Below, one piece after another: positions 15,086-47,963 of a stretch of DNA of 64,000 nucleotides. Origin of the DNA: Candidatus Collinsella stercoripullorum (lineage in GTDB: Bacteria > Actinomycetota > Coriobacteriia > Coriobacteriales > Coriobacteriaceae); NCBI GenBank assembly GCA_019117005.1, contig DXAO01000025.1, positions 62,001 to 126,000 of the forward strand, in the 5' to 3' direction. Both the position numbers and the translations under genes were made by a program. The notes under the pieces were generated by a model. It ran no database searches, was not told where the DNA came from, and saw only the letters and a list, made by a program, of their open reading frames with translations. Numbering within the stretch: the first letter of the stretch is position 1; each line of letters begins with the position of its first letter.

Positions 15086-16402
15086 ATGCAAGCACAGAAA
15101 GCCGAGGGAACCCGCGACCTCATCGGGCGCGACATGCGCGCGTGGCAGCGCATGCAGCGCGTGGCCGCCGAGGTGTTCGAGCCGTACGGCTTCGACGCGA
15201 TCGAGACGCCGGCCATCGAGCAGCTCGACGTCTTCGTCCACGGCATCGGCACCTCGACCGACGTGGTGCGCAAGGAGATGTTCCGCGTGTTCTCGGGTGC
15301 GAACTTCGCCCGCGTGCTCGAGGACGGGACCGACGCCAAGCTCAAGGCCAAGCAGCGGCTCGCCCTGCGCCCCGAGGGCACGGCCGGCGTGGTGCGCGCG
15401 GTGGTGGAGAACAACCTGGTCCCGCAGGGAGCCACCCCGTTCAAGGCGTACTACGCCGAGGCGATGTTCCGCGGCGAGCGCCCGCAGAAGGGCCGTCTGC
15501 GCCAGTTCCACCAGGTGGGCATCGAGTGGCTCGGCGCGCCCGACCCGGCCGCCGACGCCGAGTGCATCATCATGCTCATGGAGTTCTACCGCCGCCTGGG
15601 CTTCGACCTGTCCCGCCTGCGCCTGCTCGTCAACTCGATGGGCGACCCGGCGTGCCGGCCCGTCTACCGCGACGCCGTGCGCTCGTTCATCCTCGACCAT
15701 GCCGACGAGATGTGCGACGAGTGCCGCGAGCGCGCCGAGATCAACCCGCTGCGCGCCTTCGACTGCAAGAACGAGCGCTGCCACGAGGTCATGCAGGGCG
15801 CCCCGCTCATGCGGGACAACCTGTGCGACGAGTGCCGCGACCACTACGAGCAGGTCAAGCGCTACCTCGACGCGGCGGGGATCGCGTACGTCGAGGACCC
15901 CACCCTCGTGCGCGGCCTGGACTACTACACCCGCACGGTGTTCGAGGTCGAGGCCCCGGGCGCCGGCGTGGGCTCGATCGGCGGCGGCGGGCGCTACGAC
16001 GGGCTGGTCGAGCTCGAGGGCGGCAAGCCCACCCCCGGCGTCGGCTTCGCGGTGGGCTTCGAGCGCGCCATGCTCGCGCTCGAGGCGTTCGGCGTCGACC
16101 CGGCGTCGGACGCGCCGTCGTGCATCTACGTCGCCAACGCGGGGGCGGAGCTGCGCGGGGAGGTCTTCGCGCTGTGCGCGGAGCTGCGCGCGGCCGGCCT
16201 GCGCACCGAGGCCGATTACCAGGGGCGCTCGCTGAAGAGCCAGTTCAAGCAGGCCGACAAGCTGGGCGCCCGCCTGATCCTGATCGTCGGCGGGGACGAG
16301 CTCGCGGCGGGCAAGGTCAAAGTCCGCGACATGGTGAGCCACGACGAGGAGCTTGTCGACCGCAGCGCGATCGTCGAGGCGGTGCGCCGCCTGCTCTCGT
16401 AA
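15086..16402 (+). CDS. hisS: histidyl-tRNA synthetase
   Basis: Class II aminoacyl-tRNA synthetase of 438 residues charging tRNA-His. The N-terminal KAEGTRDLIGRDM, motif 2 (RLALRPEGTAGVVRAVVEN), the histidine-specific RGLDYYTRTVFEV, motif 3 (GVGFAVGFERAML), and the C-terminal anticodon-binding domain (IYVANAGAELRGEVFALC to the end) are complete. The two His-binding motifs argue against the HisZ paralogue. The insertion around residues 210-255 carries three Cys pairs (CDEC, CKNERC, CDEC) that could bind zinc. The ATG follows ACAGGAGA. It has a TATAAT promoter element and a clear terminator, so it is a single-gene unit. Confidence 0.96.
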   Translation: MQAQKAEGTRDLIGRDMRAWQRMQRVAAEVFEPYGFDAIETPAIEQLDVFVHGIGTSTDVVRKEMFRVFSGANFARVLEDGTDAKLKAKQRLALRPEGTAGVVRAVVENNLVPQGATPFKAYYAEAMFRGERPQKGRLRQFHQVGIEWLGAPDPAADAECIIMLMEFYRRLGFDLSRLRLLVNSMGDPACRPVYRDAVRSFILDHADEMCDECRERAEINPLRAFDCKNERCHEVMQGAPLMRDNLCDECRDHYEQVKRYLDAAGIAYVEDPTLVRGLDYYTRTVFEVEAPGAGVGSIGGGGRYDGLVELEGGKPTPGVGFAVGFERAMLALEAFGVDPASDAPSCIYVANAGAELRGEVFALCAELRAAGLRTEADYQGRSLKSQFKQADKLGARLILIVGGDELAAGKVKVRDMVSHDEELVDRSAIVEAVRRLLS

Positions 16403-16834: not shown

Positions 16835-19018
16835 GTGGAAAGGAGCGCATGTGAGAGTACGGCGATTGTTGCAAAAGGTAGCAGGGGGGGGGTGCTCGCT
16901 GCAGCACTGCTGACGGCGATGCCTCTTGACGCACTCGCCTGCACCCAGATCTACATGGGCAGCGACCTGACGGCGACAGGTGACACCCACGTCGGCCGTT
17001 CCGAGGATTTCGGCACGCGCTATGCGAAGTGCTTCGGTGTTCAGGAGCCCATGACGAATCCGACGTATATCTCCGAGGAGTCGGCTTTCAACTACACCTT
17101 CGAGGGCACGACCTACCGCTACACCTATGTGCGCGACGCTACGGCTGAGTGGGACGGTACCGGAACCCCCGCTCCGTATTCCGAGGCGGGCACAAACGAA
17201 AACGGCGTGTCCCTCTCCTCAACGGAAACAACCTATACCAACGACGCTGTTCTTGCGGTCGATCCGTACAGCGGCGAGGGCATCGGCGAGTTCAACATCG
17301 CCGACGTGGTGCTCGGTCAGGCCGAGTCCGCACGCGACGGCGTCGAGCTGCTGGGTTCGATTGTCGACAAGTACGGCTCGGACCATGCGAACCAGATCAT
17401 CATCGCCGACAGCACCGAGACCTGGGTGTTCATGCAGCTCTCCGGTACGCAGTGGTGCGCCATCGTCATGCCGGACGACGTGCTTTCCAGCAATCCCAAC
17501 ATGGGTAGCCTGCAGTTCAAGGTCGACCTTGACGACGAGTCCGTGTGCCTGCACTCGGAGCGCCTGGTCGAGGTCGCCGAGGAGGCCGGAACCTACACGA
17601 CCTACGACGACGGCACGATGAACGTCGCCAAGAGCTACGGCGAGTCCCGCACGGCGAATCCGCGCTACGTGCAGGGCCGCCTGTACTTCGGTGTCGATAT
17701 GGTCGAGGGCACCGACTATACGGTTGCAGACGACAGGGTCACGAGCATTGTCGACCCGCAGCTCATGTTCAAGCCCGGCGATTCCACCGAGCCGATCACC
17801 CTGATGACGGCGCTGCGCTCGTATGCCGCGCGCGGCGAGCAGTCGGACAGCCCCGCGGTGAACGCTAATCTGGGCGCTTCAGCCGCCGTCGGCAGCCAGC
17901 GCACTACCGAGACGCATATGTTCCAGATTCGCGAGGGCCTCTCCTCCGATATCGCCACAATCGAGTGGATCGCCACCTCCCCGGCGGAGTTCAACGTGTT
18001 CCTGCCGGTGTACGGCGCCCTGCTCACCGAGGTCGATAGCGCCTACTATCCGGATTCCAAGACGCTCGACGTGTCCCACACCGAAACCGACGGTATGACC
18101 GACTACGACGGCACCGTGCTCAATTTCGTCTTCATGGACATCAACACGCTGTCCGACGCCAACCGCGGCACCGTTGCGGAGGGCGTGCGCGCCTACCTGG
18201 ACGTCCTGCAGGAGTCCATCATCGATCAGCAGGAGCAGATCGATGCCGCGATGCAGCAGCTGCCCGCAGGTGACCAGCGTACCGCGCTGGCCAACGAGGC
18301 GTTCCAGGCTGTGACCGAGCAGCTGTATGCGAAGGCCGATACACTGCTCGACGAGATCCGCGACTACGTGGCTGCCGGTGACACGACCGAGCCCTTCGTT
18401 CCGAGCGACTACGACGCCGATGCCGACGCCATGGTCGAGCCGTTCGTGTATGCCGACGCGCTGTCCGCGCCGACGATCACCGCCCAGCCCGCTTCCGCGA
18501 CGTATGAGCAGGGGGCGGCTGCCGACGACCTCACCGTCGCCGCTGAGGCCGCCTATGACTCCGACGCCCTGACGTATCAGTGGTACGTCGCCGACGGCGC
18601 GATCGAGTCCGTTGACGATCTGGCCGCCTTTACCGCGGTCGATGGCGCGACGAGCGCTCAGCTTGCCGTCAACACCGATACGGTCGGCGCCAAGACGTAT
18701 GTTGTCGAGGTCACCAATGCGGCGGGCCTGACGACTCTTTCGGATCCTGCGGTCATCACGATCGAAGAGCCGGCGACCGATCCGGGTACCGACCCCTCCG
18801 ATCCGAGCACCGATCCTTCCAAGGATCCGACGGACGATCCTTCCGACAAGCCCACGCAGCGTCCCGACGACACCAAGAAGCCGACTGGCACCAAGAAGCC
18901 GACCGGCGATCTGCCGAAGACCGGCGACAGCTCGTTTGCTGCCGTGGCGGCCGTTGCGACGGCAAGCGCCGCTTGCTTGGGCGCCGGCGTCTGGATCATG
19001 CGCCGTCGTATGAACTAA
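16835..19018 (+). CDS. surface-anchored C69 family dipeptidase (LPKTG), possibly out of frame with its real start
   Basis: Secreted cysteine peptidase of family C69 (PepD-type dipeptidases). The N-terminal ACTQIYMGSDLTATGDTHVGRSEDF contains the Cys that becomes the nucleophile after removal of the leader. Domains: catalytic region to about residue 490, an Ig-like domain about 550-650 (APTITAQPASATYEQG), an Asp/Pro/Thr-rich wall spacer, and the sortase signal LPKTG at residue 693 with a hydrophobic helix and RRR tail. The open frame only reaches a GTG at 16835 that has no SD. The well-placed SD AAAGGAG (16839-16845) instead serves GTG 16851, which would encode a proper signal peptide (MRVRRLLQKVAGG) but is out of frame across nine G (16884-16892). 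Phase variation or a sequencing error are both possible. Confidence 0.8.
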   Translation: MERSACESTAIVAKGSRGGVLAAALLTAMPLDALACTQIYMGSDLTATGDTHVGRSEDFGTRYAKCFGVQEPMTNPTYISEESAFNYTFEGTTYRYTYVRDATAEWDGTGTPAPYSEAGTNENGVSLSSTETTYTNDAVLAVDPYSGEGIGEFNIADVVLGQAESARDGVELLGSIVDKYGSDHANQIIIADSTETWVFMQLSGTQWCAIVMPDDVLSSNPNMGSLQFKVDLDDESVCLHSERLVEVAEEAGTYTTYDDGTMNVAKSYGESRTANPRYVQGRLYFGVDMVEGTDYTVADDRVTSIVDPQLMFKPGDSTEPITLMTALRSYAARGEQSDSPAVNANLGASAAVGSQRTTETHMFQIREGLSSDIATIEWIATSPAEFNVFLPVYGALLTEVDSAYYPDSKTLDVSHTETDGMTDYDGTVLNFVFMDINTLSDANRGTVAEGVRAYLDVLQESIIDQQEQIDAAMQQLPAGDQRTALANEAFQAVTEQLYAKADTLLDEIRDYVAAGDTTEPFVPSDYDADADAMVEPFVYADALSAPTITAQPASATYEQGAAADDLTVAAEAAYDSDALTYQWYVADGAIESVDDLAAFTAVDGATSAQLAVNTDTVGAKTYVVEVTNAAGLTTLSDPAVITIEEPATDPGTDPSDPSTDPSKDPTDDPSDKPTQRPDDTKKPTGTKKPTGDLPKTGDSSFAAVAAVATASAACLGAGVWIMRRRMN
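16884..16892 (+). repeat. poly-G tract (nine G) inside the C69 peptidase leader
   Basis: Homopolymer G tract in the signal-peptide region. From GTG 16851 the nine-G form stops at TGA 16911; ten or seven G would join the signal peptide to the full peptidase frame. Confidence 0.9.
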
Positions 19019-19325: not shown

Positions 19326-22124
19326 ATGCGGATGTCGGAAGAAAGCGAGCAGTCATCGACCGATCGTGCATCCCTGAAGGCAGAGCTTGAGGCGACGGCA
19401 ACGGCGATGACCGCAGGCCCGCTCGCCGAGATCGAGATCCCGGAAAGCCTGCGGGCGAACCTCGCGCTGATCTTGCGCCTCGAGCGCCGTGTGCTGAAGG
19501 AGTACGATCCCGCGGTCTGCGATCTGTTTGACGTGCTGCTGCGCCATGCTATCCACGCCAACGAGGGCAATCCGGGCACCGCTGCGGCAAACGAGCGGGT
19601 TGACGAGCAGGGCGTGCCCTACGCCACCGACAGCAGCAACAGCGCCTTTCGCGCCGCCGTGGAGCTGGTCGACGAGCTCCCCATCCAGACACTCGAGACG
19701 CTCGTGCGCGCCTTCACGTCCTTTTTCCACCTTGCCAACCTGTGCGAGGAGAACTATCGCGTCGAGACCCTGCACGATCGCGAGCGCCTGGTGTCCATCG
19801 AATCGGATGTCGACCCATCCAACGAGCTGACGGTCGCCTTCAAGCAGCTGATCGACGAGGTTGGCGTCGACCGCGCCACGCAGCTGCTGGGCAAGCTCGA
19901 GTTCCATCCGGTGTTTACCGCGCATCCCACCGAGGCGCGCCGCCGTGCCGTGGAGGGCAAGATTCGCCGTATCGGCAAGCTGCTTGCCGAGCGCCCGCGA
20001 CTCGGCGGGTCGGACCTCGTGGAAAACGAGCGGCATACGCTGCAGGAGATCGATGCCCTCGTGCGCACCTCGCCGGTGGCCATCAAGAAGCCGACGCCCG
20101 TCGAGGAAGCCGACACGATCATCGACATCTTCGACCATACGCTGTTCGACACCGTGCCGCGCATCTACCGTCGCTTTGACGACTGGGTGCTCGGCGAGGG
20201 CGCGGGCGTCGTGCCGCCGGTATGCCCGGCGTTTTTCCATCCGGGAAGCTGGATTGGGTCGGATCGCGACGGCAACCCCAACGTTACCGCCAAGGTGAGC
20301 CGTCAGGTTGCCGCGAAGTTCTACAAGCACATGGTCGCCAAGCTCGCGGACAAGTGCCGGCGCGTCGGGCGCAACCTCACGCTCGAGGCAGGGTACGCCA
20401 AACCGTCCGACGAGCTGCTCAATCTCTGGAACCATCAGGTCGAGATGAGCGAGATCATCACGAGCCGCGCGAAGGACATATCGGAGTCCGAGCCGCACCG
20501 CGCCGTCATGCTTGTCATGGCGGACCGCTTGGACGGAACGGTCGCGCGCGACGCGGACGTGCTGTACGCCTCGGCTGACGAGTTGCTGGACGACCTACGC
20601 GTCGTGCAGCGCTCGCTTGCGGCGGCGGGTGCCGAGCGCGCGGCGTACGGGCCGGTCCAGACGCTGATCTGGCAGGTCGAGTCCTTCGGCTTCCATATGG
20701 TCGAGATGGAGTTTCGCCAGCATTCGCTCGTGCACACCCGCGCGCTTGCGGACATCCGCGAGCACGGTATCCACGGCGACCTGGCGCCCATGACGCGCGA
20801 GGTGCTCGACACCTTCCGCGCGATCAGCTCAATCCAGAAGCGCTATGCGCCCAAGATGGCGCACCGCTACATCATCTCGTTTACCAAGTCCGCGCAGAAC
20901 GTGGCCGACGTCTACGAGCTCGCGAACCTGGCGTTCGCGCACGCGTCGGACGTGCCGGCACTCGATGTCATCCCGCTGTTTGAGCAGCTGGAGGACCTCG
21001 AGCACTGTGTCGATGTGCTCGATGACATGCTCGAGCTGCCGGCGGTCCAGGCCCGCCTGGCGCAGACGGGGCGCAGGATGGAGGTCATGCTCGGCTACTC
21101 GGATTCGGCCAAGGACGCCGGCCCCACGACCGCCACGCTCGCCCTGCACTTTGCGCAGAAGCGCATTGCCGCATGGGCGGAGAAGCACGATATCGACCTC
21201 GTGCTCATGCACGGCCGCGGCGGTGCGGTAGGTCGCGGCGGCGGACCGGCCAACCGTGCGGTGCTCGCCCAGCCGGCGGGCTCGGTGCGTTGCTTCTTCA
21301 AGGTGACCGAGCAAGGCGAGGTCATCTTCGCGCGCTACGGCAATCCGGTGCTCGCCCAGCGCCACGTGGAGAACGTTGCGGCGGCGACGCTGCTCAATTC
21401 CGCGCCGTCGGTGGAGCGGGCCAACACCGAGATGACCGAGCGCTACCTTGACATGGCGCGCGAGCTCGACCGCGTGTCGCACGAGCGCTACCTTGCGCTG
21501 CTGGGCACGCCCGACTTTGCCCCGTGGTTCTCGGTGGTGACGCCTCTGGCCGAAGTGGGCCTTCTGCCCATCGGCTCGCGTCCGGCAAAGCGCGGCCTCG
21601 GCGCGCAGTCACTTGACGATCTGCGTACCATTCCCTGGGTGTTCAGCTGGAGCCAGGCGCGCATCAACCTGGCTGCATGGTACGGCCTGGGCAGCGCCTG
21701 TGAGGCGTTTGGCGACGTGGAAACGCTGCGAAGCGCCTATCGCGAGTGGCCGCTGTTCTCGACGTTCATCGACAACGTGGAGATGTCCATCGCCAAGACC
21801 GATACGCGTATCGCCAAGATGTACCTGGCTCTGGGCGACCGTTCCGACCTGGCGCACGCGGTGTATGACGAGATGCAGCTCACGCGCCGCTGGGTGCTTG
21901 CCATCGTGGGTGACGAATGGCCGCTCGAGCACCGGCGCGTGCTCGGCCGCGCCGTGCGCGTGCGCGATCCGTACGTGGACGTGCTGTCGCTCGCGCAGGT
22001 GCGCGCCCTGCGCATCGTGCGCGACGAGGGCGATGGGCTGTCCGAGGAGGCGCGCGCCAAGTACCTGAGCCTGATCCTTGCGACCGTCACGGGTGTTTCC
22101 GCCGGCCTTCAGAACACCGGCTGA
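19326..22124 (+). CDS. ppc: phosphoenolpyruvate carboxylase
   Basis: A 932-residue anaplerotic enzyme that carboxylates PEP to oxaloacetate with bicarbonate. Catalytic segments: PVFTAHPTEARRRAV near residue 195 with the essential His, SWIGSDRDGNPNVTAKV near 310, VMLGYSDSAKDAGPTTA near 590, the glycine-rich LMHGRGGAVGRGGGPANRA loop near 630, and the C-terminal QNTG that carries the carboxylate needed for activity. The start is ambiguous between ATG 19326 and ATG 19332, both served by AGGAGGAGGGGGAGG. It is monocistronic. With no competing carboxykinase in the window, it probably feeds the reductive branch to malate, fumarate and succinate. Confidence 0.96.
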   Translation: MRMSEESEQSSTDRASLKAELEATATAMTAGPLAEIEIPESLRANLALILRLERRVLKEYDPAVCDLFDVLLRHAIHANEGNPGTAAANERVDEQGVPYATDSSNSAFRAAVELVDELPIQTLETLVRAFTSFFHLANLCEENYRVETLHDRERLVSIESDVDPSNELTVAFKQLIDEVGVDRATQLLGKLEFHPVFTAHPTEARRRAVEGKIRRIGKLLAERPRLGGSDLVENERHTLQEIDALVRTSPVAIKKPTPVEEADTIIDIFDHTLFDTVPRIYRRFDDWVLGEGAGVVPPVCPAFFHPGSWIGSDRDGNPNVTAKVSRQVAAKFYKHMVAKLADKCRRVGRNLTLEAGYAKPSDELLNLWNHQVEMSEIITSRAKDISESEPHRAVMLVMADRLDGTVARDADVLYASADELLDDLRVVQRSLAAAGAERAAYGPVQTLIWQVESFGFHMVEMEFRQHSLVHTRALADIREHGIHGDLAPMTREVLDTFRAISSIQKRYAPKMAHRYIISFTKSAQNVADVYELANLAFAHASDVPALDVIPLFEQLEDLEHCVDVLDDMLELPAVQARLAQTGRRMEVMLGYSDSAKDAGPTTATLALHFAQKRIAAWAEKHDIDLVLMHGRGGAVGRGGGPANRAVLAQPAGSVRCFFKVTEQGEVIFARYGNPVLAQRHVENVAAATLLNSAPSVERANTEMTERYLDMARELDRVSHERYLALLGTPDFAPWFSVVTPLAEVGLLPIGSRPAKRGLGAQSLDDLRTIPWVFSWSQARINLAAWYGLGSACEAFGDVETLRSAYREWPLFSTFIDNVEMSIAKTDTRIAKMYLALGDRSDLAHAVYDEMQLTRRWVLAIVGDEWPLEHRRVLGRAVRVRDPYVDVLSLAQVRALRIVRDEGDGLSEEARAKYLSLILATVTGVSAGLQNTG

Positions 22125-25645: not shown

Positions 25646-26248
25646 AAAAGAGCTCCTTCCACAGGGTGCTTCGTTGCGAATGTGGCACATCCTAATACTT
25701 GCTGATGTGCATGTGCAAGCGTAAATATGCATGCAACAGGATAGAAATATACATTCCAATACGATAATGGGCGGATATGATTCAGTTTTTGATAGATGTT
25801 CGTTTTGCCGGGAGCGTCGTCCGGGGTGTTCTTTTGACGGGATGCACGGCGAAACTTGCAGGTCAGAGCTTACGTATGTACACGGTTTGGCACACCCGCG
25901 CCCGCGTCCGCACGCGGGGTGATTCATTCTTGATTATCTATGGTTTTGTTAATTGAAATAATGCGGGTCTTCGTCTGCGCATACCTGTATGCAGGTTCGG
26001 GGGAAGGAGAGACCCGCCTGCGCCGCGTGTCGCTGCCGGCGCGGGCCAATGCTTCCCCTTTGTTAAGAGTCGCAAGAACCCGTGCTTTTTCGTGGCGCCG
26101 CACGGCATTTCCGGTATGCTAATGCAGCCGCGCTCCCCATAGGGGTATTGCGGCAAAACCCGAGATGCGCTGTCTACGCACGCTCGGGAATCTGTACGAC
26201 GTCGCCCGTACCGGCACGGGGCGACACAGATCAAAAAGGAGGATTTCC
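25646..26248. other. divergent control region of the ABC importer and aspS
   Basis: A 603-base gap. The part nearest the binding-protein gene (25680-25790) is AT-rich with TGCATG...CATGCA (25708-25735) and, on the minus strand, TTGCAC-N15-TATTAG as a possible promoter. Towards aspS there is TATGCT (26116-26121) as a -10 candidate. No T-box, lysine riboswitch or tRNA was recognised. Confidence 0.45.
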
Positions 26249-28291: not shown

Positions 28292-28993
28292 TCAGGCGAG
28301 GGCGCGCAGCGCGGCGATGTCCGCGTCGGTGAGCTCGAGGTCCATCGTGAGGCCGACCGGGGGCACGCTGAGCTCGACCACGTTCGAATTGCGGTAGCAG
28401 GTGATGGCGAGCGCCTCGTAGACCTGCAGGTCCTCTGCGCTCTGGCTGGCTTTCCGGGTCTCGCGCTGCCAGAGGCGCAGCGTGAACTCGGGGTCCCCGG
28501 GGTTGGTGGGCACGATCTTCCAGCTGTCGTACGAGAACGCCGCGAACGTCTCCGCGACCTGCGCGACCTGCTCGGATCCGGAGTACTCGGCCAGCGTCCC
28601 ACCCCCGTGCGCGTCCTCGATCACGATGCGTTCGGCCGCGGAGAGCGCCGTGCCGCTGCCGAACGCCTCGTCCAGGATCTCCGGCGCCTGGGAGAGGGAG
28701 TCCAGCGACCCCTCGAGCTTCTCGAACATGGACGTGAGGTCGTCCCCCACCTCGCCGAACGAGCCGCCGACCTCCTCCTGTGCCCGGTCGAACGCGTCGG
28801 CGACATCCTGGCGCGCATCGTCCACGGCGTTCGCCGCGTCGTCGAGCGCCTGCTGGGCGGACCCGTCGCGCAGGTCGCCGACATCGGTGCCGTTGTCGGT
28901 CACGAGGCATCCGGAAAGCGGTGCCGCCAGGGTGAGCGCCGCCGCGCAGACGGCGACGATGCGGAGACGGATGCGGGTGCGAGGACGGGTCAT
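28292..28993 (-). CDS. putative lipoprotein of unknown function
   Basis: A 233-residue predicted lipoprotein: Arg-rich n-region, hydrophobic core IVAVCAAALTLAAPL and lipobox LSGC with Cys near residue 29. The mature part has an acidic, Ala/Asp/Glu-rich helical region about 40-105 that could form a coiled coil, then a compact domain with the segments TLAEYSGSEQVAQVAETFAAF, PGDPEFTLRLWQ and TCYRNSNVVELSVPP. No family was recognised. ATG 28993 follows GGAGG. Its promoter contains a nine-base homopolymer in the spacer, so expression may vary between cells. Confidence 0.7.
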   Translation of the reverse strand: MTRPRTRIRLRIVAVCAAALTLAAPLSGCLVTDNGTDVGDLRDGSAQQALDDAANAVDDARQDVADAFDRAQEEVGGSFGEVGDDLTSMFEKLEGSLDSLSQAPEILDEAFGSGTALSAAERIVIEDAHGGGTLAEYSGSEQVAQVAETFAAFSYDSWKIVPTNPGDPEFTLRLWQRETRKASQSAEDLQVYEALAITCYRNSNVVELSVPPVGLTMDLELTDADIAALRALA

Positions 28994-29022
28994 AGGGGCC
29001 TCCTTCATGTGGTGACGTCCCC

Positions 29023-29049
29023 ATTCTAGGTGGGGGGGGGTTCCGTGAA
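29023..29049 (-). promoter_or_regulatory. lipoprotein promoter with a nine-C spacer tract
   Basis: On the minus strand TTCACG, a 15-base spacer that includes nine C (plus-strand G at 29032-29040), then TAGAAT (29028-29023). The predicted start point is about 23 bases before the gene. Length change of the tract would move the spacer toward or away from 17. Confidence 0.5.
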
Positions 29050-43489: not shown

Positions 43490-43512
43490 CACGTGCTATA
43501 CTTCGACCGACA

Positions 43513-43613
43513 TACGGGGAGCTGGAGGACTCCGGCTGAGAGGAAGCCCGCGCGGACGCCCCGCGCACCGCTTCGACCCGAAACCTGATCCGGGTAATGC
43601 CGGCGTAGGGACA
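43513..43613 (+). ncRNA. TPP riboswitch (THI element)
   Basis: The conserved TPP aptamer blocks are in order: ACGGGGAGCTGG (P1/P2 start), CGGCTGAGAGGAAG (pyrimidine-sensing J3-2), GACCCGAAACCTGATCCGGG and TAATGCCGGCGTAGGGA (pyrophosphate-sensing helix). Between them is a GC-rich P3 extension. It precedes a thiamine-precursor transport operon, so thiamine pyrophosphate should switch the operon off through the terminator that follows. Confidence 0.95.
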
Positions 43614-43628
43614 TGCGACCATGTGTGA

Positions 43629-47925: not shown

Positions 47926-47963
47926 GTTAGCCATTCCTAACAGTAGAGGGCCGCGGGGGGGGG
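47926..47963. promoter_or_regulatory. candidate iron box upstream of feoB, followed by nine G
   Basis: GTTAGCCATTCCTAAC (47926-47941) has inverted GTTAG/CTAAC ends and matches the box before the ABC exporter at 10 of 14 central positions. A run of nine G (47955-47963) follows. It suggests feoB can be transcribed separately from the feoA genes. Confidence 0.5.

Follow-up and report, generated by a model that had tools for sequence, protein, structure and literature searches.

A nine-G tract in the signal-peptide codons of a Collinsella C69 peptidase gene as a probable phase-variation switch

Introduction

Can a run of nine G near the 5' end of a surface peptidase gene switch the enzyme on and off in a gut actinobacterium? 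The question is raised by a stretch of 64,000 nucleotides from Candidatus Collinsella stercoripullorum (genome G000; 2.22 Mb in 59 contigs), referred to here as the window, in which a single C69 peptidase gene lies between hisS (ending at 16402) and ppc (about 19331-22124). An initial annotation of the window had proposed that the nine G separate the peptidase from its best-served start, and that the enzyme may be phase variable. Phase variation has been studied extensively in Proteobacteria and Bacteroides, and translational phase variation at poly-G or poly-C tracts is known from Neisseria, Campylobacter, Helicobacter and Bordetella; to our knowledge, it has hardly been studied in Coriobacteria.

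Results

The gene encodes a C69 peptidase with predicted export and wall-anchoring signals. PF03577 matches residues 35-405 of the long frame (E=1.4e-54; 186 bits against a cut-off of 23), which runs from GTG 16835 to 19018 and encodes 727 aa including LPKTG. The PDB dipeptidase 5iau and its relatives also match (E=1e-30), and NCBIfam NF033678 (C69_fam_dipept) gives a score of 217.5, short of its cut-off of 250. Joining the frame of GTG 16851 to that of the peptidase yields the signal peptide MRVRRLLQKVAGGG-(V/M)LAAALLTAMPLDALA followed by CTQ, in which a basic n-region precedes a hydrophobic core, and cleavage at A-L-A would leave the C69 cysteine as residue 1; the signal peptide is complete only if the frames are joined. 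Cleavage is predicted between ALA and CTQ, and almost all the homologs read retain the cleavage region and the ACT. Processing would thus be expected to expose the catalytic Cys at the N terminus. The protein ends in LPKTG, a hydrophobic stretch and the basic RRRMN. These signal-peptide and sortase-anchor features, read by eye from the translations, are those of a sortase-anchored surface protein, and they agree with the earlier description of a secreted, wall-anchored enzyme. Scans for sigma-70-type promoters and terminators around the peptidase gene gave nothing clearly above shuffles. The features of the locus are collected in Table 1.

Table 1. Features of the peptidase locus (window coordinates) and further Collinsella genes with G tracts near their starts
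Feature	Position	Strand	Basis
GTG without a Shine-Dalgarno sequence, most distant start of the long open frame and possibly a weak alternative start	16835..16837	+	translation
Shine-Dalgarno AAAGGAG serving GTG 16851	16839..16845	+	read in the sequence; identical in L067 and L068
Frame of the SD-served start, VRVRRLLQKVAGGGCSLQHC followed by a stop; signal-peptide n-region ended by the frameshift	16851..16913	+	translation; homologous start in relatives
G9 tract, proposed switch; its length modulo three sets the joining of GTG 16851 to the peptidase	16884..16892	+	sequence; tract comparison with L067 and L068
Remainder of the C69 peptidase ORF: signal h-region, cleavage site between ALA and C, catalytic domain, LPKTG wall anchor	16895..19018	+	translation, PF03577, 5iau
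Cys codon, residue 1 after signal cleavage, expected C69 N-terminal nucleophile	16940..16942	+	Pfam model begins here; Ala-Cys-Thr in homologs
LPKTG sortase signal, hydrophobic stretch, RRR tail	18911..19018	+	translation; LPQTG or LPKTG in near relatives
Mod, sugar transferases and SpaA-domain protein with start-proximal G tracts (loci L161, L162, L149, L164, L170)			

Frame reading agrees with the initial annotation that the nine G put the peptidase out of frame with its SD-served start. AAAGGAG precedes GTG 16851 by five bases, and translation from this codon, which as described opens a signal peptide, gives MRVRRLLQKVAGGG, then continues out of frame across the tract to TGA 16911-16913. 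ATG 16849 runs directly into TGA 16852, also as described. C. tanakaei ET30 (L067) has the homologous GTG in frame, and GTG 16851 aligns with the SD-served ATG starts of the more distant relatives L042, L043 and L044, which read MKLRSVLGKVAGGGMLAAS, MKVRNFVRRVAGGGMLAAS and MKLRSVIAKIAGGGMLAAS. In neither near relative (L067, L068) is the frame of GTG 16835 joined to the peptidase, and this codon overlies the SD of GTG 16851. On the strength of these alignments, we take GTG 16851 to be the conserved, ancestral start and the window allele to be out of frame.

Initiation at GTG 16835, or at GTG 16892, would instead leave the window allele expressed, perhaps weakly, with tract length selecting a strong start, a weak start or none. 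In the window, the frame of GTG 16835 leads into the peptidase and would add a basic n-region ahead of the same hydrophobic stretch, and the ATGCATG of Collinsella pilin-like genes (see below) likewise places two starts in different frames before one G tract. Against this, GTG 16835 aligns with no relative's start and, as had been pointed out, lacks an SD and overlaps that of the other start, so that we regard this reading as very improbable; a rarely used, weaker second start is possible. The further claim that GTG 16835 is the only start in the long frame does not hold, since the frame also contains GTG 16892, where the tract ends, and ATG 16919.

A G9 run is in itself unremarkable for this G-rich window, where three are observed against 1.6 expected and 28 of 100 shuffles reach three. 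The case therefore rests on position, conservation and frame. What exceeds chance is the place of the tract and its persistence: it occupies codons 12-14 counted from GTG 16851, inside the signal-peptide codons of the 5' coding region, and 9-10 G are retained in three genomes. A pattern search of the whole genome of G043, the nearest isolate, gives just two runs of at least nine G, one of which is the peptidase tract. Furthermore, the mature proteins of the three near genomes contain 142 glycines, of which GGG encodes one; the tract presents three consecutive GGG codons. The third G9 run of the window, at 47955-47963, is apparently intergenic.

The three near genomes show three frame states, each genome representing a different species, so that these are differences between species and not between strains. 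C. tanakaei ET30 (L067; protein 94% identical) has nine G followed by ATG and is in frame, an assembled genome of an uncultured relative (L068; 95% identical) has ten G followed by ATG and is out of frame, and the window allele has nine G followed by TG and is out of frame. Because the A after the tract is absent from the window, an ordinary point mutation may account for one of its changes. In all three genomes the rest of the gene is conserved and the flanks are near-identical, with tract and frame differing. When genome contigs were scanned with the signal-peptide DNA, these two near relatives alone matched, and the same scan of viral contigs gave no match.

For the mature region, dN/dS is 0.14, 0.165 and 0.19 in the three near pairs (691-692 codons), values that indicate purifying selection on the downstream coding sequence, both out-of-frame genomes included. 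In alignments of hisS, the C69 gene and ppc (window against G043 and G038; about 7 kb, 92-93% identical), single-base gaps within conserved coding sequence come in compensating pairs, the gap at 16893 being the uncompensated exception. To judge from these results, the window sequence is not generally poor in quality and the gene is not decayed. A fixed frameshift, in a lineage on its way to a pseudogene without return, would fit the single tract length known for the window genome and the loss of the A after the tract; yet all three near genomes keep about 690 downstream codons intact and under purifying selection, as well as the tract itself, which makes such decay improbable.

Among the wider C69 homologs, runs of 7 G (L040, L041), 8 G (L043) and 9 G (L044) stand at the same place, all in frame, and in L042 the tract is interrupted (GGAGGTGGC). 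L045 (G029) has 9 G at another place in the signal peptide, in frame, possibly of independent origin, and G062 has a 6-G run. Outside the clade, none of the class-wide C69 homologs read has such a tract or is out of frame, which marks the tract as a derived, clade-specific feature. The out-of-frame cases are confined to the genes with the longest runs.

The main rival to a switch is an error in tract length introduced by sequencing or assembly, the true chromosome being in frame and expression constitutive. G homopolymers are hard to sequence, and Illumina failures on G-tract templates have been described (PMC9187656). If the near genomes are short-read assemblies or MAGs, a length of 9-10 G may have been misjudged, and the homologs with a short tract or none are all in frame. 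However, two of the three near genomes are out of frame, and in different ways; the neighbouring conserved coding sequences are free of any other uncompensated indel; and an error-prone tract would leave unexplained why a gene that avoids GGG retains three such codons. We consider this error unlikely, if less so than the other alternatives.

Similar tracts occur elsewhere in the genus. A pattern of SD, ATG and at least nine G has 42 matches in Collinsella, compared with 7 for the reversed control (overlapping matches counted in both). In brxA, a BREX gene (PF08849, 114 bits; PADLOC BrxA; L196-L202), the GTG start is followed by a G tract that is G9 and in frame, giving 227 aa, in four species (G002, G005, G008, G037), and G10 and out of frame, with a stop after 21 aa, in three (G001, G007, G033). 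The surrounding 945 bases differ by about 0.5-5%, and the G9 and G10 states do not group clearly by similarity. A multi-copy pilin-like family (L179-L195; GQSIIEYVLII), with weak matches to Flp/Fap and to class III signals, starts ATGCATGCAGCGG. Here ATGCATG provides two overlapping starts in different frames, followed by a tract of G8-G10; most copies read into the ORF from the first ATG with G9 and from the second with G10, so that two of the three length classes join it, and several copies do so from neither. In G018, a type III Mod gene (PADLOC MTase_III, 510 bits) carries a G9 tract that leaves the SD-served start out of frame. Tracts of G8 and G10 also stand at the start of sugar transferase genes (PF02397), and a gene for a SpaA-domain surface protein carries G10.

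Together, these interspecies comparisons of assemblies show length plasticity with an effect on frame at Collinsella loci. We lean towards the view that Collinsella, and probably other Coriobacteriales, carry poly-G contingency loci genome-wide just after starts, in genes for wall peptidase, pilin-like proteins, BrxA, type III methyltransferase and sugar transferases, with the window gene as one member. These comparisons also bear on a further alternative, in which transcriptional slippage or ribosomal frameshifting across the tract would supply some full-length enzyme without any change in the DNA. Polymerases and ribosomes can slip at long homopolymers; the in-frame DNA alleles of the relatives and the DNA length differences at brxA speak against this explanation, to which we give very little weight, the least among the alternatives.

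Several other runs were seen in passing. Two genomes of a Coriobacteriales genus from another family (G319, G337; L203-L232) have 27 and 34 loci in which a shared leader, for example ATGTCACAAATTTCGCC or ATGAAGTCACAAATTACGCC, is followed by G9-G14, where the control pattern gives 0. Many of the loci read have, 3' of the G tract, an ORF whose N terminus is that of a type IV pilin (PF07963); they look like a very large poly-G-switched family of pilin-like genes. In the window's own genome, a G10 tract (L081; G000:C58:20615-20624, minus strand) lies in a short SD-served leader ORF and begins 84 bases before a candidate defence gene, a 980-aa HKD and Snf2-type helicase (PADLOC C3a139, 372 bits).

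Two runs are candidates for switches of promoter-spacer length. At window 29032-29040, a minus-strand C9 run immediately precedes a TAGAAT -10-like box; the start of a small lipoprotein gene (28292-29008, minus strand) follows at a distance of about 24 bases. Between TTGACT and TACGCT, L086 (G038) has 9 G and L094 (G043) 8 G, for a spacing of 18 or 17; the gene downstream encodes a secreted protein of some 1000 aa with METVRR at its N terminus. The Rfam matches to an aspS leader RNA (window 26159-26240) and a TPP riboswitch (43505-43628) are both ordinary.

Discussion

The sequence comparisons make it likely, in our judgement, that the peptidase is phase variable by slipped-strand mispairing at the G tract. 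The tract is a homopolymer of slippage-prone length in the 5' coding region, its length sets whether the frames join, and this length varies between close genomes, albeit of different species, while the rest of the gene is conserved, as at contingency loci. Slipped-strand mispairing at replication would add or remove one G. One length class in three would let ribosomes that initiate at GTG 16851 cross the tract and translate the signal peptide together with the entire peptidase; the full-length product would be exported, cut between ALA and C so as to expose the catalytic cysteine, and attached through LPKTG to the wall. With either of the other classes, translation from GTG 16851 would end prematurely (in the window allele, after 20 codons), and little or no enzyme would reach the surface; the window sequence would accordingly represent an OFF allele. 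Of these steps, we infer slippage inside one population, its reversibility and the loss of the surface enzyme. The suggestion that the peptidase may be phase variable thus gains support from the conserved start, the frame states of the near relatives, purifying selection and the 9/10 G differences at unrelated loci of the genus.

If G tracts do act as switches for phage defence, pili and surface enzymes in Collinsella, a reference assembly would hold one random state per locus, and calls of presence or absence of switched genes would mislead. Gut populations would mix cells in different surface and phage-defence states, and what looks like a difference between strains in phage sensitivity or host interaction could reflect switch states.

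The product resembles the C69 family (PF03577; 5iau) in its domain and in the Cys directly 3' of the cleavage site, and it departs from the family in its long wall-anchored C-terminal part and in scoring below the cut-off of NF033678 (C69_fam_dipept). As in Neisseria, Campylobacter, Helicobacter and Bordetella, a homopolymer near the 5' end of surface-protein genes sets the frame by its length, although the phylum and the targets are different and the Collinsella case is known from genome assemblies. For Collinsella or Coriobacteria, no report of phase variation or poly-G switching was found in the open-licence literature, subscription papers being outside this scope.

The closest counterparts are the sortase-dependent pilus loci bbr_0113 and bbr_1889 of Bifidobacterium breve, in which a Sec signal and an LPXTG protein lie in two ORFs with a G tract between them (PMC9187656). 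There, tract lengths vary within the population, and joining of the frames was shown experimentally to give surface pili (PMC9187656), which provides the precedent for poly-G slippage as a surface-protein switch that the initial annotation had invoked. Both cases concern a gut actinobacterium in which a G tract stands between a short SD-served Sec-signal ORF and a long LPXTG ORF without a good start of its own, and in both, joining depends on tract length. In B. breve the switched gene encodes an operon's first pilin, bbr_0113 has mainly 11-12 G in its tract and population variation was measured, whereas the Collinsella case involves a single peptidase gene with 9-10 G and is known from a species-level comparison of genomes. 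The mechanism is thus already known, for example from Bifidobacterium pili, while the target and the genus look new.
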